A DNA stretch of 64,000 nucleotides from Ectothiorhodosinus mongolicus (lineage in GTDB: Bacteria; Pseudomonadota; Gammaproteobacteria; Ectothiorhodospirales; Ectothiorhodospiraceae), in the NCBI RefSeq assembly GCF_022406875.1, contig NZ_CP023018.1, positions 1,192,784 through 1,256,783 on the forward strand. The letters run 5' to 3'. Shown one piece after another: positions 19,155-36,260 of this stretch (the stretch's first letter is position 1; the number at the start of each line of letters is the position of its first letter). The notes beneath the pieces were generated by a model. It made no database searches and was not told the DNA's origin. It saw nothing but the letters and a program-made list of their open reading frames with translations. Position numbers and translations under genes: made by a program.

Positions 19155-21148
19155 CAGTTTGCTTCCTCAGATGTCTTTATCTGCAAAATGAGGTTACCCC
19201 AGTCATCGACACGCAAGTGCGCAAACGGCGGGACCACCACCGTCGAGGTGTATTCCACGATAATGGCAGGCCCGAGAATCTGATTCCCGGCCAATAAGGC
19301 TTTCCTGTCCCAAATCGTTGTATCCAGCCACTCACCATCAAAATAGACGGTTTGTGTACCCAGTTGCGCATGCGGCGGCGAGGCTTCTCCAGATTTAATG
19401 CGTTCCATCGGGGGCTTGGCCGGCTCGCCGATGGCACGCACTCTGAGGGTCACCATTTCTGTGGGTTTTTGCGGGTCGCAATAGCCATAGAGTTTTTCAT
19501 GCAGACGATGAAACCCAGCAATCGGATCGGCATCCAGCGGCACCATGATCTCAAATGACTGCCCCTGATAACGCATATCGGCGTATGCCTGGATCGTGAT
19601 TTGTGAGGGCCTTATACCTTCTGATTTTAATTCTTCAGTGGCGCGGCGTTGTAAGGTCTCTAGGGGGGCAGCCAATGCATCAAGCATTGTCGACGTATCC
19701 CCAAGCATCAGGGTTTGAGAATAATCCTTGATGACATCAGCCAATAACATGCCTGAGGCAGACAAGGTTCCCGGTCGACAAGGAATTAAGACCTGCGATA
19801 TGCCCAGTTCGCGAGCGAGGTCAGCGGCATGTAAGCCCCCAGCTCCGCCGAAACAGACTAAGGTGAATTCTCTGGGGTCATGTCCGCGTTCTACGGAAAT
19901 GACTCTTAATGCTCGCTCCATGGTGGCATTAGCGACGCGCAGAATGCCATCGGCGAGCTCATCTGCCGGGACATCTAAAACCTTTGCTAGCTGATTCATT
20001 GGCGCGTTGATGCGGCTTTTGTCCAAGCTCATGTGGCCGCCAAGGAAATGCTCGGCGACCAGCCGTCCTAAATAAAGGTTGGCATCAGTCACAGTGACAT
20101 CCTGGCCGCAGCCATAACAAGCTGGCCCTGGATCTGCTCCTGCGCTTTGTGGTCCTACCCGCAGCGCGCCACCCATATCAGCCCAAGCAATGGATCCTCC
20201 ACCGGCGCCCACGGTATGGATGTTGATCATGGGCACCTTGATGGGATGATCGGCAATGTGAGATTCCATGGTCATGGGCAGCGCTCGGTCCAGCAAAGCT
20301 ACATCGGTTGAGGTGCCTCCCATATCGAAACTCATGATCTTGTCAAAACCCGCAGCCTTTCCCATCTCCAGTGCCGCTACGGCGCCCCCGGCGGGCCCAG
20401 ACAAGATGGTGCGTACCGATTCACGCATCGCCGTCTCGGCGGATATGCTGCCACCATTGGACTGCATGATGCGCAGCGACCTTGGTGGCAGTGAATCCTG
20501 CAGGTACCGAATATAGGTACGCATTTTCGGCGCAACATAGGCGTTAATGACCGTGGTTGAGCTGCGCTCGTATTCCCTAAATTCGGGAAGGATTTCATGG
20601 GATAAGGAAAGCGGTAGCTCTAGGTCTTGAAGTATGTTTGCAACCGCTAACTCATGTTCTGGGGTGTTGAAGGAAAACAGCAATGAGATGGCAATAGACT
20701 CAATGCCTCTCTCGGCGATGGCTGATTTCAATTGTTGTACCGCTGCGGTATCCAGGGGTGTGATCTCATGGCCTTGGGTGTCGATGCGGCCAGCTACACC
20801 GAAACGACAGTCTCTCGCTACCAGAGCGGGCGCGCGTTTGGCCTTGAGGTCATAGAGCTTGGGACGTTGCTGGCGGCCAATTTCAATCACATCCTCAAAG
20901 CCAGTATTGGTAATCAGCGCGGTCACCGCGCCGCGGCGTTCAAGAAGGGCATTGGTCGCCACTGTTGAGCCATGCACCACTTTGCAATCCTGCAGCTGCA
21001 GTGAGTCGATGATATGCGCGAGGCCCTCGAGTACGGCTTGAGCAGGATTGGCGGGTGTTGACAGTCTTTTGTGCACCCGCCAGCACTGCCCATCATGCCA
21101 AATGAAGTCAGTGAAAGTTCCGCCTGTATCGATACCGATTGCCAACAT
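19154..21148 (-). CDS. Hydantoinase A/oxoprolinase family protein (HyuA-like)
   Basis: 664 residues. The ASKHA-type ATPase site is visible at the N-terminus (IGIDTGGTFTDFIWHDG) and in MSFDMGGTSTDVALLD near residue 270. VHGSTVATNALLERRGA and ISVERGHDPREFTLVCFGGAGG are further family marks. HyuA phosphorylates the amide oxygen of a cyclic imide or lactam for its partner HyuB. Separate A and B genes are usual in bacteria; 5-oxoprolinase fuses them. It is divergent from the sulfite-dehydrogenase-like gene. Glutathione recycling is one possible link, since gshA lies in the window, but that is a guess. Confidence 0.88.
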   Translation of the reverse strand: MLAIGIDTGGTFTDFIWHDGQCWRVHKRLSTPANPAQAVLEGLAHIIDSLQLQDCKVVHGSTVATNALLERRGAVTALITNTGFEDVIEIGRQQRPKLYDLKAKRAPALVARDCRFGVAGRIDTQGHEITPLDTAAVQQLKSAIAERGIESIAISLLFSFNTPEHELAVANILQDLELPLSLSHEILPEFREYERSSTTVINAYVAPKMRTYIRYLQDSLPPRSLRIMQSNGGSISAETAMRESVRTILSGPAGGAVAALEMGKAAGFDKIMSFDMGGTSTDVALLDRALPMTMESHIADHPIKVPMINIHTVGAGGGSIAWADMGGALRVGPQSAGADPGPACYGCGQDVTVTDANLYLGRLVAEHFLGGHMSLDKSRINAPMNQLAKVLDVPADELADGILRVANATMERALRVISVERGHDPREFTLVCFGGAGGLHAADLARELGISQVLIPCRPGTLSASGMLLADVIKDYSQTLMLGDTSTMLDALAAPLETLQRRATEELKSEGIRPSQITIQAYADMRYQGQSFEIMVPLDADPIAGFHRLHEKLYGYCDPQKPTEMVTLRVRAIGEPAKPPMERIKSGEASPPHAQLGTQTVYFDGEWLDTTIWDRKALLAGNQILGPAIIVEYTSTVVVPPFAHLRVDDWGNLILQIKTSEEAN

Positions 21149-21219
21149 GGATCTGCGATTGCTTAGGTGTGGCTCATTATGCCGTAGCGCTCATTACTTA
21201 TACCCCTATTCATTATTCC

Positions 21220-21248
21220 TTGACAGGCGCCCCGAACAGCAGTTAAAA
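21220..21248 (+). promoter_or_regulatory. Possible promoter for the sulfite dehydrogenase-like operon
   Basis: A perfect TTGACA at 21220-21225 is followed after 17 bases by TTAAAA (3 of 6). Start near 21255 would leave an A-rich leader of about 85 bases with repeated AAAAGC/AAAACA stretches before the ATG. Weak -10, so only tentative. Confidence 0.35.
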
Positions 21249-21338
21249 CCAAGCATGAAAGTCAGTAATAATAAAAGCATAAAAAAACATAAGAAGCAGG
21301 AAATGCCTCATACCCCTAACATGATTGGAGGTTCGGAG

Positions 21339-22682
21339 ATGAAGAAGTCAGGCAAGACGGAAGTAGAGCAGGTTCGTGGAGTCTTGGAAAACGCCGGCGC
21401 GCGCGCCGAAACACTCGAGCTTTTTGATGAAGTGACCTCTCGCCGTCAGTTTCTGGGACGTAGCGGGGCTGCCTTAGCGCTGATGGGTTTTGGAGCGGGG
21501 TCAGCAGCGGCGATGCAGGGCCTGTTTGGACAAGGTCTGGTGCCAGCCGCGTGGGCTGGGCAATTGGAAGGGATTGAAGATGACCAAGCTCGTGCGGCGC
21601 TGACGCAGGCCGGCAAAGAAGGCTTGCATATCTACAACGCCCGTCCTGTCAATGGTGAACCAGATCCCTGGCTGCTTAAAGATGCGGTCACGCCCATTAA
21701 ACATCATTTCATTCGCAACAATGACCTGATTTCTTCCCGCGCTATGGATCGTAATCCTCAAGGCTGGCGCCTGACCATTGATGGTGAAGTGAATCGCACC
21801 ACTCATTTCACACTGGATCAGCTGCAGTCAATGCGTACCGTGACTCTTTCGCTACCCATTGAGTGTGGCGGAAATGGGCGGGCCTTCTTTGACCCACCGG
21901 TTCGCGGTAACCAGTGGAAGCGCTGCGCGATTGGTTGCTCTGAATGGACGGGTGTGCCTCTGCGTGAACTGCTGAATGCCGCTGGCGTAAAAGATACCGC
22001 AGTTTACACGGGTCATTATGGCGAAGAGCCAATTCTCGGCAATCGTCCTCCCTTCTCACGCGGCATTCCCATTGACAAAGCCATGGAAGAGCACACCATT
22101 GTTGCCTTCAAGATGAACGGTGAAGATCTTCCAGCTGTCCATGGCTATCCTGTGCGTTTGGTGGTGCCGGGTTGGTATGGCAGCTGTTCCCACAAGTGGT
22201 TGAACAAGATCACTCTGCGAGATCGCGAGCACGACGGCCGGGGTATGATGGGTTATTCCTATCGAATGCCTGCCTATCCGGTCGCCCCGGGTGCTCGCCC
22301 ACCTGAAGAAGATATGGTGGTTGGTGGTCCTTGGCTCATTAAGTCCATCATCACAGGCCCCAAAGATGACGCTGAGTTCCGCGCTGGTGAGACGGTGACT
22401 GTCACCGGGCATGCTTGGGCCGGTGAGGGCCGCGTTCGTCGCGTCTCTATCTCCACTGACTTCGGCAATACTTGGCAACGGGCTCGTTTGGCGCGTCCTG
22501 CCAATAAGTATGCTTGGGCACAGTTTGAGGGTGAAGTGACCTTGCCCGGTCGTGGTTACTATGAAATCTGGGCACGTGCCGAGGATCGAGATGGCAACAT
22601 CCAACCTCAGGTCCAGGCCTGGAATCCGCGTGGCTATGAGGGCAATGTCGTGCACCGCGTGCCGGTGATGGTGTCGGCCTGA
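21339..22682 (+). CDS. Tat-exported sulfite dehydrogenase-like molybdoenzyme (SoxC/SorA family)
   Basis: 447 residues from the ATG at 21339, chosen for GGAGG 7 bases before it; the open frame runs nearly 300 bases further upstream without family-like content. A twin-arginine signal (SRRQFLGRSG, then Ala/Gly-rich) lies near residues 33-60. The molybdenum-pterin domain has the Cys ligand in LPIECGGNGRAFF and the WTGVPLRELL and GYPVRLVVPGWYG blocks; the last 130 residues form the Mo-co dimerisation domain (WAGEGRVRRVSISTDFG). The small cytochrome gene 20 bases on is a likely electron acceptor, so sulfite:cytochrome c reduction in the periplasm is the best guess. Substrate not proven. Confidence 0.85.
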   Translation: MKKSGKTEVEQVRGVLENAGARAETLELFDEVTSRRQFLGRSGAALALMGFGAGSAAAMQGLFGQGLVPAAWAGQLEGIEDDQARAALTQAGKEGLHIYNARPVNGEPDPWLLKDAVTPIKHHFIRNNDLISSRAMDRNPQGWRLTIDGEVNRTTHFTLDQLQSMRTVTLSLPIECGGNGRAFFDPPVRGNQWKRCAIGCSEWTGVPLRELLNAAGVKDTAVYTGHYGEEPILGNRPPFSRGIPIDKAMEEHTIVAFKMNGEDLPAVHGYPVRLVVPGWYGSCSHKWLNKITLRDREHDGRGMMGYSYRMPAYPVAPGARPPEEDMVVGGPWLIKSIITGPKDDAEFRAGETVTVTGHAWAGEGRVRRVSISTDFGNTWQRARLARPANKYAWAQFEGEVTLPGRGYYEIWARAEDRDGNIQPQVQAWNPRGYEGNVVHRVPVMVSA

Positions 22683-31732: not shown

Positions 31733-33538
31733 TTAATACGCGACAGCCCCTTGTGCATGGCTAACGAAACTGCCTGCGCCAATATAACCGACTAGCCGAT
31801 AGTCTCGCAGCTCTTCGCCCGCGGTATCAAAGAAAATCATCGCGGGTGGGCCGAAGAGTTCAAAACGCTGCATCAACTGACGATCCTCTGCGGTGTTGGC
31901 GGTGACATCGACTTTTAGCAAGCGCACTCCCTCCATGGCAGCAATCACCGCGGGATCGCGAAACGTGGTGCGTTCCAAACGCACACAATCCACGCACCAG
32001 TCGGCATAGAAATCAAGCATAGTGGGTTGATTTTGCTGGCGGGCCATCTGCAGTTCTTGCTCCAGCTGCTCGATGCTTTGCACGGGTCTGAATACTAGTT
32101 CAGCCTGCTGTTGTTGGCCACCACCCATGGCCAGCCCGCTGAGCGGCCGGAAAACGTCACGCGCCCCTGAGGCAGCCCCGATCATCAACAAGATGCCGTA
32201 GACCATGAGCACTAAGCCAAAGCCTTTCCAAAGCCGACGCCAACCACTCACGTCATCAGCCAGGTTGGTGAGCGCACCCATATAAACAGCCGAGACGATA
32301 AGCAATACCGCCCACAAGAGCATGGTGGCCTGAACAGGGGCAACGCGCTCTAACAGCCAAATGCCCATCGCCAGCAGTAGCACGCCAAAAACGGCCTTGA
32401 CCGTATCCATCCAACCACCGGCTTTGGGCAGAATTTTACCGGCTGAGGTGCCCAGCAGCAGTAGCGGTAGCCCCATGCCCATACTTAAGCTAAATAGTGC
32501 TAATCCACCCAAGACTGCATCGCCTGTCTGACTGATATACAACAGCGCGCCTACCAAAGGTGCGGTCACACAGGGCCCGACGATCAAAGCAGATAAAAAG
32601 CCCATAATCGCCGCACCCAATAAAGTGCCGCCTTCCTGCTTATTGGAGATGTTGGCCAGCCGAGTTTGGATGCTGGTAGGTACTTGTAGCTCGTAAAAAC
32701 CGAACATCGACATGGACAGGGCGATAAATACAGCGACAAAGCCACCGATGATCCATGGGTTTTGGAAAGCCGCCTGTAAGTTGGCGCCCGCTAGGCCTGC
32801 GAAGACACCCGCCAAGGTGTATGTGAAGGCCATCGCCAGAACAAAGACCAAGGAGATGAAAAAGGCTTTGCGTGTAGTGAGGTTTTTCTGCCCGACGATG
32901 ATATTGGATAGGATGGGTATCATCGGGAACACACAGGGTGTGAAGGTCAGCAGTAAGCCAAAGCCAAAAAAGGCCAGAGCTACCAGCCAGAATCGACCAT
33001 CGGCAAGCTGTGCGGCAATGCGGTCTTGCTCAGATACCGGAGCGGCTGAACGCGTGTCCACAGTCGGGGGGCCGCGCGGTGGAGTGGCCAGACGAAATTC
33101 ATTCAGTAGGACCTCAGCGGTTTGAAAATGCGGTGGATAACACACGCCAAGATCAGCGCAACCCTGCGAGCGCGCGCGAACGGTGAATGACTCAGGCGCA
33201 TCCGTGTCTCGATCAATACTGATGCGGATTTGAATGAGATCACGATAGGTTTCAACGCGGCCAAAGAACTCATCTTCTTTCCAAGTGCCTCCCGGGCGGT
33301 CAATTTCACCCATGCGAACGCCATCGGTTTGCAGTTCGAATTGGAACTGCTCGCCATACATATAGTAGCCCGGTGCAATGCGCCATTCGGCCACCAAAGT
33401 GCTGAAGTCTTCCATGTAGGCCTCAAAAGCAAAGGCCTCGTCAGGGGGCAGCAACTCATCATCCATAAATGCCTGCGCCTGCCAGGGCAGAAGCATGATG
33501 AGGCCAAGTAATAGTATCTTGATGAGGGCTTGCTTCAT
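31733..33538 (-). CDS. dsbD: DsbD, thiol:disulfide interchange protein
   Basis: 601 residues. Signal peptide about 1-23. The periplasmic alpha domain (to ~170) has a Cys pair in QGCADLGVCYPPH. Eight membrane helices follow, with FTPCVFPMIPIL and VGPCVTAPLVGALL holding the electron-carrying cysteines. The C-terminal thioredoxin-like gamma domain has DWCVDCVRLER. DsbD moves reducing power from cytoplasmic thioredoxin across the inner membrane to periplasmic DsbC, DsbG or CcmG-like proteins. It lies 79 bases after the adaptor gene of the channel/thioredoxin set, so it may join the same transcript. Confidence 0.95.
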   Translation of the reverse strand: MKQALIKILLLGLIMLLPWQAQAFMDDELLPPDEAFAFEAYMEDFSTLVAEWRIAPGYYMYGEQFQFELQTDGVRMGEIDRPGGTWKEDEFFGRVETYRDLIQIRISIDRDTDAPESFTVRARSQGCADLGVCYPPHFQTAEVLLNEFRLATPPRGPPTVDTRSAAPVSEQDRIAAQLADGRFWLVALAFFGFGLLLTFTPCVFPMIPILSNIIVGQKNLTTRKAFFISLVFVLAMAFTYTLAGVFAGLAGANLQAAFQNPWIIGGFVAVFIALSMSMFGFYELQVPTSIQTRLANISNKQEGGTLLGAAIMGFLSALIVGPCVTAPLVGALLYISQTGDAVLGGLALFSLSMGMGLPLLLLGTSAGKILPKAGGWMDTVKAVFGVLLLAMGIWLLERVAPVQATMLLWAVLLIVSAVYMGALTNLADDVSGWRRLWKGFGLVLMVYGILLMIGAASGARDVFRPLSGLAMGGGQQQQAELVFRPVQSIEQLEQELQMARQQNQPTMLDFYADWCVDCVRLERTTFRDPAVIAAMEGVRLLKVDVTANTAEDRQLMQRFELFGPPAMIFFDTAGEELRDYRLVGYIGAGSFVSHAQGAVAY

Positions 33539-33571
33539 GATGAACAGCTGTCCTTAATCCAATTCAAATAT

Positions 33572-33584
33572 GGGGTCAGACCCC
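33572..33584. repeat. REP-like palindrome GGGGTCAGACCCC
   Basis: A 13-base palindrome in the 79-base gap between dsbD and the adaptor gene (GGGGTC, A, GACCCC). This short element recurs in intergenic spaces of many gammaproteobacteria as I recall, near REP-type or transposase-linked repeats. Only one copy was noticed in the window. Confidence 0.45.
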
Positions 33585-33617
33585 GCAAGGTTGGTATGGT
33601 TTCCGTCCTGGGTGCGT

Positions 33618-34379
33618 TCATGGCAGAACAATCCTTGCTTCCATGCCTGCAAGCAGGCCGTGGTCACTTCCTGGTTCAAAGCTGACCTCGAGCGCGTAAA
33701 GGCCGGGTTGATCAGGCAAGGACTCCTGGCCAATGTGGCTGACCTGAGCGTCATACTGTTGCTGACCGATCCGCACCAGTACGGAGTGGTTTTGCGATGC
33801 CCGGGCCAGCTGTGTGTGAGTCACTAAGGCTCGCGCTAGCATTCGCTGTGCATCAGCAATGATGATTAAAGGCTCAGCCTGCAAACGATTGTAATTCAGT
33901 GCTCCGGCTGGGATTAGAACATCGATAACCCGCGCATCCCAAGGTGCTATGAGCTGAGTGTATTCAAGCTCTAGCCTGGCCTGAAGCAGTTCAGCCCTAG
34001 CCTGCTGATGCTCGGCGCGGGCCATCGATAAGGCGATTTCGGATAGGGATAATTCACGCCGCGAGATCAAGGTTCGATCGTACATCTCCTCGGTGCGTTC
34101 AAATTCTCTTTGCGCCTCCTCATAAGCCAGACGCAATCGATGTTCCTGAGCCTCGGCCCGCATCAGTTGCGCTTCTGCACCCCGGCTATCCAGCTGCATC
34201 AGAACATCACCCTGCTTGACTGCATCCCCCGCTTGCACAGCGATATGCGTCACATAACCGGAGACCGAGGTCGCCATGCTCAGGCGCTCAGCCCATTGCA
34301 GCCGTGCCTCTAGCTCTTGCGCCAGCAAAGTCCCTGGGATAAAAAACAGCGGAAGAAAAAACCAAGCCAAAGGTTTCAT
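33618..34379 (-). CDS. Short HlyD/RND-type periplasmic adaptor (membrane fusion) protein
   Basis: 253 residues from the ATG at 34379 (MKPLAWFFLPLFF, signal peptide ending LLAQ); it overlaps the TolC-like stop as ATGA. The lipoyl half-motif SVSGYVTHIAVQAGDAVKQGDVLMQLD is followed by a long coiled-coil hairpin (about 75-145) and then the second lipoyl half (YTQLIAPWDARVIDVLIPAG) with a beta-barrel domain. The membrane-proximal domain of larger adaptors is missing. Such proteins link an inner-membrane pump to a TolC channel, but no pump gene is adjacent. Confidence 0.85.
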   Translation of the reverse strand: MKPLAWFFLPLFFIPGTLLAQELEARLQWAERLSMATSVSGYVTHIAVQAGDAVKQGDVLMQLDSRGAEAQLMRAEAQEHRLRLAYEEAQREFERTEEMYDRTLISRRELSLSEIALSMARAEHQQARAELLQARLELEYTQLIAPWDARVIDVLIPAGALNYNRLQAEPLIIIADAQRMLARALVTHTQLARASQNHSVLVRIGQQQYDAQVSHIGQESLPDQPGLYALEVSFEPGSDHGLLAGMEARIVLP

Positions 34380-35683
34380 GATCCATCGCCTCGCAATGTC
34401 AGGGTGCTGAGCTCCGGCTCTCCGACCAGGATGGCCAGACGTTCCCAAGCCAAGGCCAGACGAAACTCTGTTTCTGCAGTAAACAAGATTGCTTCAGACT
34501 GGCGCATCATAGAGTCGCCGAAATCGGTGGCCACCTCCATCTCATAAAGTGATCGACTGCGATCCAGATATAGGTCTCGGTAATCGGCATGAATTTGCGC
34601 TTGCTCGCGTTGTGTCCGCAATCTTTGGATCTCCAGCCAGGTATCCAGCAGTTCTTGACGCAGCCTAAGTTCAAAAAGTTGTAGCTCAGCAATCACAGCA
34701 TGATGCGCAGCTTGAGCGCGCACTAGCGCGGCATTCTCTTGCCCCCCTTGATAAAGGGGCAAATCCAGAACTAGGCCAAGCATATATGGGTTACGATCGC
34801 CGCCGAATTCTCGGTTCCACCAGCCAGCTTGGGCCTCTGCGCTCAGCGTGGGGCGCCGCTGAGCTCGGGCGGCAGCCATCGCTTGGCTCGCGGCCTCAAG
34901 CTCTAGTCTATGGGCAAGCAACTGCGCATTAGACTGCATGGCTTGAGTCAGTAATTCATTAAAGTCGACTGCCTGCCGATCATTACCCCGCAGTTCCGGG
35001 GCCCGCAATTGTGCCGGCAGTTGTTCAGGGCGATTCAGGATATTGGCCAAGTGTTGGCGTCTGGCACGTTGCTGTTGCAGGCTAGACAGACGCTGCAGTC
35101 GCGCCTGCTGAAAGTGGTTTTCGTCTGCCAATAAGTCCACATCAGAAACCCGCCCCAGCTCATGCCGATTTCTCTGTCTATTGAGCTCCACGAAGGCTAC
35201 CGCCATGGCCTCATTGTCTCGGGTATAGGTCAGATCAGCCAGTAGCACATCGAAATAGGCCGCCATAATGTTTAAGCGATGTTGTTGGCGCTGTTGAGCC
35301 CATTCGAGTTCGCGGCTGCGGATTTGGGTTTGTGCTGAGTTCTGCAAAGACCGACTGCGACCGAAATCATACAGCGGTTGGCGCGCGCTCAATAAAGCGC
35401 GAGAATCATCATTATCTCGAATAGGCGCCTGTGGGTTTGGGTCGATCCAGCGGGGGTTAAGTTCCAGGCCAAGCTGCAATCTGTTATGGCTCTGTGCCTG
35501 CAGCGCTTCAGCCTCTGCGGCCATTTGCTGGGCGCGATACCACTGAAGATGGGGATGCGCTTCATCCGCTAGAGTGAGTGCTGCATGAAGCGTCAATGGG
35601 CTTGGCAAGACATCGGTTTGGCCAGCAGACCAAGGCGCCAGCCAGAGCAGCATCAGGCAAAGATGCGGTCTCAAAGCGCGCAT
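34376..35683 (-). CDS. TolC-family outer-membrane channel protein
   Basis: 435 residues from the ATG at 35683, with signal peptide (ends WSAGQ); the longer frame upstream overlaps the thioredoxin gene and is not plausible as protein. Two long Gln/Ala/Arg-rich helical repeats, each with a beta-strand turn, are visible: LQLGLELNPRW and SRALLSARQPLYDFGRS in the first half, LSAEAQAGWWN and LGLVLDLPLYQGG in the second. This two-repeat plan makes the trimeric TolC-type tunnel. It starts 10 bases after the thioredoxin-fold gene and is coupled to the adaptor gene. Confidence 0.88.
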   Translation of the reverse strand: MRALRPHLCLMLLWLAPWSAGQTDVLPSPLTLHAALTLADEAHPHLQWYRAQQMAAEAEALQAQSHNRLQLGLELNPRWIDPNPQAPIRDNDDSRALLSARQPLYDFGRSRSLQNSAQTQIRSRELEWAQQRQQHRLNIMAAYFDVLLADLTYTRDNEAMAVAFVELNRQRNRHELGRVSDVDLLADENHFQQARLQRLSSLQQQRARRQHLANILNRPEQLPAQLRAPELRGNDRQAVDFNELLTQAMQSNAQLLAHRLELEAASQAMAAARAQRRPTLSAEAQAGWWNREFGGDRNPYMLGLVLDLPLYQGGQENAALVRAQAAHHAVIAELQLFELRLRQELLDTWLEIQRLRTQREQAQIHADYRDLYLDRSRSLYEMEVATDFGDSMMRQSEAILFTAETEFRLALAWERLAILVGEPELSTLTLRGDGS

Positions 35684-35693
35684 TTTTTGAGGT

Positions 35694-36260
35694 TCAAAGG
35701 TCGCGCGCAGCTTGTTGGCGTTCGCGACGATAACGGCTAAACGGCTGCTCTTTATAGGCACCGCTAACCACATATTCCCCCAACCAAATGAATTCTTCAG
35801 GTGTGGAGGTGGCACCCGTTAAACGCGCGATAGGCTCGCCCTGCAGATCATAAAACTGAAATACAGGCGTTGCCCTTACCCGATTGCCCTCAAAAGCCCA
35901 CTCGCGCTCGGTCGTCGTGTTTCCCTGAAAATCATTGATTTCAATGGCGCCTTCAACATCCACCGAAAAGCTAGAGAAATGTTCGCGAAAGAAATCCTGG
36001 ACCTCACGTTGATTGAGAATGTTCTCCTTCATGCGGTGGCAGAAAGGACATTCATCCATCTCAAAAAACACCATGATGGCGGTTTTTCCGTCAGCCTTGG
36101 CGGTTTCTAATTCTTCCTGAAAATCACCAAAAGTTGGCTGGAAGAAATACTCATAGGGATCACGCTCCTCCGCCATTGAAGGTGCGACAAGCATCATTGC
36201 AAGTGACAGCCCAAAGGCCAGTCTGGCAAAGAAGTTCGAACGCTGCAGCCGAGACGGCAT
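35694..36260 (-). CDS. Exported thioredoxin-fold protein (SoxW-like)
   Basis: 188 residues, signal peptide about 1-30 (cleavage after SMA). The active site is MDECPFCHRMKENIL, a CPFC motif as in SoxW-like and related thioredoxins, with the cis-Pro in RATPVFQFYD. It should be a periplasmic thiol oxidoreductase, kept reduced perhaps by DsbD, which is encoded 2.2 kb downstream on the same strand. It is first in a four-gene minus-strand set with the TolC-like and adaptor genes. The exact partner is unknown. Confidence 0.82.
   Translation of the reverse strand: MPSRLQRSNFFARLAFGLSLAMMLVAPSMAEERDPYEYFFQPTFGDFQEELETAKADGKTAIMVFFEMDECPFCHRMKENILNQREVQDFFREHFSSFSVDVEGAIEINDFQGNTTTEREWAFEGNRVRATPVFQFYDLQGEPIARLTGATSTPEEFIWLGEYVVSGAYKEQPFSRYRRERQQAARDL

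Follow-up and report, generated by a model that had tools for sequence, protein, structure and literature searches.

A thioredoxin, TolC-type channel and short adaptor encoded together without a coupled pump in Ectothiorhodosinus mongolicus and other gammaproteobacteria, with a probable tie to sulfur oxidation

The locus and its three-gene unit

We analysed a 64,000-nucleotide stretch of the Ectothiorhodosinus mongolicus genome (contig NZ_CP023018.1, positions 1,192,784 to 1,256,783; hereafter the window), in which a thioredoxin-fold protein (trx), a TolC-like channel, a short periplasmic adaptor and DsbD are encoded in succession. The assembly of this genome comprises one contig, 1,995,095 bases long. 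An initial annotation, made from the letters alone, had described four genes on one strand, the first three of them coupled by a 10-base gap and an ATGA overlap, with no pump gene alongside. These points were borne out by the sequence: all four open reading frames (ORFs) lie on the minus strand, the trx stop and the tolC start are 10 bp apart, the tolC and adaptor genes share an ATGA overlap (adaptor ATG at 34379), and no pump gene adjoins them at this locus. The observation is real, and the unit consists of three genes rather than four. The features are as follows.

35694..36260, minus strand: trx, thioredoxin-fold protein with CPFC, putatively exported, 188 aa, with an N-terminal hydrophobic signal-like stretch (ORF, Thioredoxin_2)
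34376..35683, minus strand: tolC-like outer-membrane factor, 435 aa, likely start ATG 35683 (OEP)
33618..34379, minus strand: short HlyD/RND-type periplasmic adaptor, 253 aa, likely start ATG 34379 (TIGR01730)
33539..33617, minus strand: gap of 79 bp between adaptor and dsbD, the place of cutA in inspected relatives (sequence)
31733..33538, minus strand: dsbD, a neighbour from a separate conserved block (NF001419)

The match of trx to Thioredoxin_2 was at 2.7e-19. The TolC-like protein matched OEP above the cut-off (1.1e-35) and TIGR01844 below its cut-off (6.7e-31), and the adaptor matched TIGR01730 (RND_mfp) above the cut-off (2.3e-33) over model positions 15-244 of 322; its ORF would extend to 276 aa with the upstream TTG taken as start by the ORF tool. 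DsbD matched NF001419 at 1e-181.

The order trx, TolC, adaptor on one strand was found in 55 loci, the window included and a few being the same genome fetched twice; since the same order recurs in all of them, it is more than chance. The gaps ranged from -4 to 151 bp between trx and TolC and from -4 to 201 bp between TolC and adaptor, with two large trx-TolC gaps as exceptions (L085, with a broken trx frame, and L118; L and G numbers are our handles for loci and genomes). A trx ortholog was detected in 97 of 369 gammaproteobacterial genomes, and in 75 of these the adaptor gene shares the strand of trx and begins 1.2-3.8 kb further downstream; several counts over the 369 genomes (adaptor linkage, SoxY, family, control) were copied by hand from tables. 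At least nine of the 22 trx genomes without a linked adaptor carry a diverged triad (five: L227, L229, L230, L231, L236) or a contig end at this place (at least four: G094, G221, G293, G351). Among 37 genomes of the family Ectothiorhodospiraceae, our own included, strong matches were obtained to trx in 35 and to the adaptor in 33 (our tally from tables), and the locus in G006, of the genus of the window genome, is the same as L067, Ectothiorhodospira haloalkaliphila. The TolC-like protein is 422-464 aa long in 56 of 58 cases measured, the other two being shorter, and the protein distances of trx, TolC and adaptor co-vary over 53 loci with r of 0.89-0.96. Taken as a three-gene module without a pump, the set is very probably conserved across many gammaproteobacterial families. 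The conserved pump-free set for which the initial annotation had suggested a search exists, in this sense, for trx, TolC and adaptor; for the order of all four genes the outcome was negative.

Residues C71, C74, M77, K78, T131 and P132 of trx are invariant in all 62 rows of the alignment, the window included. The thioredoxin fold and the CxxC motif are both present; export is putative, from the N-terminal stretch. With the AlphaFold2 model of trx (predicted local distance difference test score, pLDDT, 93.7), Foldseek returned a thioredoxin-fold protein of Helicobacter pylori as best match, followed by DsbD C-terminal domains and others. This H. pylori protein (4fyb/4fyc), the DsbD C-terminal domain and DsbH are among its best sequence or fold neighbours, at about 17-22% identity in the fold search; PA0953, the 'probable thioredoxin' of Pseudomonas aeruginosa, is presumably a further relative. 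As for a redox partner of trx within the channel or the adaptor, no alignment column of either protein holds Cys in more than 20% of rows.

Several variants of the arrangement were observed. G015 carries two triads, one beside dsbD and the other elsewhere without dsbD (L100, L104). In G270 and G156 (L219, L220, L235) trx is separate from the TolC-adaptor pair, which lies there near acylphosphatase- and proS-like clusters (by eye). The loci L087-L090, from Cycloclasticus and a Piscirickettsiaceae bin, hold a diverged trx of 35-37% identity beside a J-domain-like gene (by eye), and neither TolC nor adaptor was found in them. A paralogue in the window genome (G000:C1:348874-349848) has two tandem thioredoxin-type matches in an open frame of 338 aa, and similar two-part matches occur in many genomes of the family. 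In a plasmid collection the adaptor had no match and trx five weak ones (27-29% identity).

A short adaptor and no coupled pump

The adaptor measures 242-275 aa in 56 cases, the window included; the longer chains of AcrA, MexA and MacA have 327-397 residues. As the start codon was picked nearest the expected start, it is the C-terminal end of this length that is independent. The AlphaFold2 model (pLDDT 93.1, 27 sequences) comprises hairpin, lipoyl and beta-barrel domains, the hairpin helices spanning residues 66-101 and 107-139. It could be superimposed on the AcrA core with a template-modelling score of up to 0.88 by target (2f1m_B) and, for 2f1m_A, with Z 17.7 and a root-mean-square deviation of 3.2 over 226 aligned residues. 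The alignments end at AcrA 298, MexA 260 and E. coli MacA 299, which we take to be the points where the membrane-proximal domain starts. That the adaptor lacks this pump-docking domain, as the initial annotation had read from the sequence, and keeps the TolC-docking half is supported by the model. A truncated or decayed adaptor was considered and rejected because the short length is a family-wide trait (56 of 56 measured).

The RLS-motif columns of the hairpin tip (95, 99 and 106; 55 rows) are occupied by R or K in 53 rows, by L or M in 55, and by S, A or P in 25, 26 and 4, respectively; by pattern search the strict motif was found in 16 rows and the relaxed motif in 40. In the available part of PMC3391258, the RLS motif is the TolC-binding site and its serine partly tolerates alanine. 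The N-terminal hydrophobic signal-like stretch of the adaptor runs directly into the strand 21-29. A-x-A is present within residues 11-45 in 33 of 55 rows, and no lipobox was found in the first 40 residues of these rows.

With the RND/MacB tripartite efflux systems (AcrA, MexA and MacA with TolC/OprM) the module shares the channel family and the adaptor core of hairpin, lipoyl and beta-barrel domains, with the hairpin-tip motif mostly retained. It differs from them in having neither a membrane-proximal domain nor a coupled pump, and in the presence of a thioredoxin in the operon. HlyD and EmrA pair with ABC and MFS pumps and have an extended hairpin, whereas the hairpin of the module is AcrA/MexA-sized, no pump is coupled, and the N-terminus is signal-peptide-like and leads straight into the first strand. 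In the sections of PMC4446572 available, every adaptor of a pump with large periplasmic domains has a membrane-proximal domain, and a hairpin extension, in some with a membrane helix, is described for MFS and type I ABC adaptors; EmrA, too, is without the membrane-proximal domain. As modelled, with neither that domain nor a long hairpin, the present adaptor fits neither pairing.

The neighbourhoods of TolC-adaptor pairs were scanned twice. The first scan covered 98 pairs with 90 distinct adaptors; its home-made gene caller overlooked some dsbD genes. It revealed neither a gene that combines the two ABC ATPase motifs nor an RND pump on the strand of the pair. The many-helix neighbours listed comprised dsbD, a recurrent YihY-like protein (by eye) and a few others that occurred once or lay on the opposite strand; MFS neighbours, which lay outside the tblastn seeds of the second scan, were detectable here alone, as many-helix proteins. 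The second scan used tblastn and no gene calling; it covered 108 pairs, 95 of them with at least 4 kb on both sides, and known RND and ABC loci, included as positive controls, gave the expected matches. No ABC match was detected within 9 kb of any of the 108 pairs, and with the RND and ABC seeds no pump was found coupled to a pair. RND matches on the opposite strand lie at 3.6 kb (L127) and 2.8 kb (L236), and the one on the same strand (L275, at 4.8 kb) is a fragment of 56 residues at the edge of the locus, past opposite-strand genes and beside a second adaptor. A pump gene conserved beside the set in relatives, which the initial annotation had named as the outcome contrary to its view, was, with these seeds, found coupled at none of the 108 pairs.

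The window genome has four full-length RND genes, each with its own adjoining adaptor gene (by Pfam for three, by an adaptor match for the fourth), and one further weak RND match of 31.6 bits. An orphan RND pump, which the initial annotation had suggested looking for, was therefore rejected for these four, in a search that covered the RND genes of the genome. The TolC of this operon as the sole TolC of the cell was likewise rejected, as the genome holds four OEP genes. A distant relative of the adaptor, of 381 aa (L222:3822-6891 in G169), has no link to trx; its gene is directly coupled to those of a MacB-type permease and an ABC ATPase, a kind of pump absent from the triad.

The pair may work without a pump, as a duct from the periplasm to the outside, or its pump may be encoded elsewhere. 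The latter is the main rival of the duct: a shared or unlinked pump, most likely of the ABC or MFS type, would be supplied in trans, and trx would serve sulfur or cytochrome chemistry. To our knowledge, adaptors of known function work with a pump, and this pairing, the place that TIGR01730 gives the adaptor among RND adaptors, the genes coupled to the distant relative L222 and an inventory of pumps in the genome that covered the RND type all speak for it. Against it stand the adaptors already present beside each full-length RND gene, the 108 pairs without a coupled pump, and an adaptor that combines the missing membrane-proximal domain with a hairpin of AcrA/MexA size. We regard a pump in trans as rather unlikely on balance.

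Association with sulfur oxidation

SoxY was scored with TIGR04488 at E <= 1e-10, and matches better than 1e-40 were called strong. SoxY was present in 89 of the 97 trx-bearing genomes and in 100 of the 272 others (odds ratio 19, p = 9e-23, uncorrected for phylogeny), and strong SoxY in 83 of 97 and 58 of 272, respectively. Flavocytochrome c sulfide dehydrogenase (FCSD) was detected in 57 of 97 compared with 58 of 272, and either SoxY or FCSD in 94 of 97 compared with 103 of 272. Counted by family, SoxY occurred in 48 of 51 families with trx and 43 of 131 without; the families were read by hand from tables and the total of 182 was taken from their numbering. As a control, generic adaptors in genomes lacking trx gave no enrichment (SoxY in 61 of 152 genomes with such adaptors and 39 of 120 without; p = 0.21). 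The window genome has SoxY and FCSD matches, and no match to DsrA.

In two loci trx is linked to sox genes, the other triads looked at being located elsewhere. In L085, from a metagenome bin labelled Nitrospirae, the genes for YeeE/YedE, trx, TolC, adaptor, SoxY, SoxZ, a YeiH-type transporter and a rhodanese stand in this order, the triad thus between yeeE and soxYZ; in G202 (the same as L232/L279), a run of soxX, soxY, soxZ, soxA and soxB precedes trx, which lies on the same strand 5.4 kb away, and YeeE comes after trx. Taken together, these distributions indicate that the module is probably tied to sulfur oxidation. The initial annotation had named a thiol or a metal as the exported substance; this was a guess, and the data point to sulfur oxidation instead.

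Several observations weigh against this tie or against its assignment to the module as a whole. Kinship among the genomes was handled by the family count alone, and plain vertical descent could also yield the co-variation of protein distances described above. The trx frame of L085 is broken into two ORFs (L085:1755-2291), by decay or assembly error; the trx near the sox genes of G202 is without TolC or adaptor; and many triads adjoin proS-, wrbA- and arsC-like genes (by eye), outside sox clusters. G001 and G008 lack TolC and adaptor at the locus although assigned to the genus of the window genome. As trx is absent from 58 of the 141 strong-SoxY genomes, it is not required for Sox. DsrA and SoxC were compared in 80 genomes with strong SoxY, 40 each with and without trx, picked at random from 83 and 58, respectively, the window genome (G000) being added by hand. 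No difference was observed either for DsrA (25 of 40 with trx, 26 of 40 without) or for SoxC above the cut-off (6 of 40 and 10 of 40), so that the correlation concerns sulfur oxidation broadly, and zero-valent sulfur is not singled out. Finally, SoxY is as frequent in the trx genomes without a linked adaptor (20 of 22, at least nine of the 22 being diverged triads or contig ends) as in those with one (69 of 75), and trx alone may therefore carry the correlation with sulfur.

This last point leads to a further alternative, in which trx is a SoxW- or SoxS-like reductant of the Sox carrier and accounts for the whole sulfur signal, TolC and adaptor being a separate export system that shares the operon. 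The SoxV/SoxW/SoxS system resembles the module in having a periplasmic thioredoxin-fold protein and possibly a donor of DsbD/CcdA type, and trx co-occurs with sox genes and is linked to them in two loci; the module differs in that its trx is coupled to a TolC-adaptor pair. Such a role would agree with the equal SoxY rate of unlinked trx (20 of 22, diverged triads and contig ends included), with the position of the G202 trx between soxXYZAB and YeeE in the absence of TolC and adaptor, and with the accessible portion of PMC10451225, in which SoxS is described as preventing the inactivation of SoxYZ and the reduction of SoxW by SoxV is cited. In gammaproteobacterial sulfur oxidizers the role of SoxW is described as unclear in the part of PMC4949241 available. 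The three genes are, on the other hand, together in 75 of 97 genomes and co-vary, which argues for a joint function, and we consider a trx working apart from the channel and the adaptor unlikely.

A SoxC/sulfite oxidase-type molybdopterin oxidoreductase is encoded elsewhere in the window, at 21048-22682 (Oxidored_molyb 1.9e-53, Mo-co_dimer 4.8e-20); its score with the SoxC model (8.2e-59) is under the cut-off of that model, and the genes after it resemble molybdenum-cofactor genes (by eye).

DsbD, a neighbour of the module, and a possible route for periplasmic sulfur

A remnant of ordinary drug or metal efflux, that is an RND system minus its pump kept by chance, would account for an adaptor and a channel of efflux families, and is already disfavoured as very improbable in view of the short adaptor (56 of 56 measured), the conservation of W29, G41, G51, P146 and the hairpin tip in it, and the position of the sole same-strand RND match (L275, 4.8 kb) past opposite-strand genes and beside a second adaptor.

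The initial annotation had suggested an envelope system made up of all four genes, DsbD among them. In its favour, DsbD directly adjoins the adaptor here and would be a plausible electron donor, and in the tblastn scan 36 of the 108 TolC-adaptor pairs had dsbD within 4 kb on their own strand. By our own split, such a dsbD was present for 33 of the 35 family pairs and for 3 of the 73 others (L241, L253, L270); in L242, outside the family, the place of dsbD is cut off by the contig end. Against it, a CutA-type gene follows the adaptor in all relatives inspected (L067, L093, L242, L253, L270; identified by Pfam for L093 and L253), and is followed by dsbD and then by a TlpA-like gene where contig and gene caller allow (by Pfam for genes of L093, L253 and L067). 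We take it that cutA and dsbD are adjacent in E. coli as well. Moreover, dsbD persists where TolC and adaptor are absent, as in G001 and G008, in which trx and dsbD are in place with neither of the two between them. A four-gene unit with DsbD was ruled out on these grounds (cutA insertion, 3 of 73, G001/G008) and retains hardly any probability; the comparison of neighbourhoods did not uphold the four-gene order, and the initial annotation had itself named a lack of its conservation as telling against the proposal. DsbD is a neighbour from a separate block, not a member of the module. As the window locus has neither cutA nor tlpA at that place and cutA stands between adaptor and dsbD in relatives, the direct contact of adaptor and dsbD looks like a local outcome of cutA loss. 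In 24 of 84 distinct trx loci the gene immediately before trx belongs to the TlpA-like cluster, making a second thiol protein a recurrent companion.

The gap between adaptor and dsbD contains a 13-bp palindrome, GGGGTCTGACCCC (33572-33584), which occurs once in the window, with matches to both strands, compared with an average of 0.03 matches in shuffled sequence. A promoter and terminator scan of the locus gave values within about 1 standard deviation of shuffles and was not used. Upstream of the locus lie fxsA-groES-groEL on the opposite strand (fxsA by Pfam, groES and groEL named by eye), and downstream, on the dsbD side, aroQ-accB-accC-prmA-dusB (by eye).

As the best explanation overall we tentatively propose a duct for periplasmic sulfur served by a DsbD-fed trx. 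In this mechanism the adaptor would cap and open the TolC-type channel from the periplasmic side, so as to form a duct from the periplasm to the outside. The cargo would be made in the periplasm by Sox, by flavocytochrome c or by sulfide oxidation, and would most likely be a sulfane sulfur, polysulfide or persulfide product; because it would arise in the periplasm, an inner-membrane pump would be unnecessary. The trx protein would be reduced by DsbD, its neighbour here and a plausible donor, or by a donor of CcdA type, and would free or reduce the sulfur carrier or the cargo at the channel mouth, comparable to SoxVW and SoxS acting on SoxYZ. On its own, the proposal that the pair is a duct for sulfur intermediates is possible and somewhat doubtful. 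The narrower idea that it vents polysulfide or zero-valent sulfur bound to a carrier, set free by a DsbD-fed trx, and so supplies the outer-membrane step still missing from the extracellular deposition of sulfur by Ectothiorhodospiraceae and their relatives, is speculative and in our estimate quite unlikely. Outer-membrane vesicles, proposed as the sulfur carrier in a green sulfur bacterium (PMC12285230), also speak against a duct.

In the available text of PMC10045233, HlyD and TolC genes of Sulfurovum are up during oxidation and reduction of S0, which is read there as polysaccharide secretion. Further background is contained in the accessible parts of PMC8277102, PMC7787665, PMC4287430 and PMC11582611. 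Among the literature matches listed, no description of the module or of sulfur export by it was found in titles and abstract openings, subscription journals being mostly uncovered. We rate the module as known parts in a new combination, together with a family-wide absence of the pump-contact domain.

If the proposal is true, the module would be a two-part transporter of channel and cap, driven by periplasmic redox chemistry and without an inner-membrane pump. TolC channels are regarded as the outermost of the three parts of a pump. A widely conserved pair of channel and adaptor that lacks the pump-docking domain and, in sulfur oxidizers, travels with a thioredoxin would contradict this rule. 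The pathways behind the extracellular globules of Halorhodospira are described, in the part of PMC3746430 available, as not yet fully resolved. For the passage of periplasm-made sulfur across the outer membrane, the module would be a concrete candidate.

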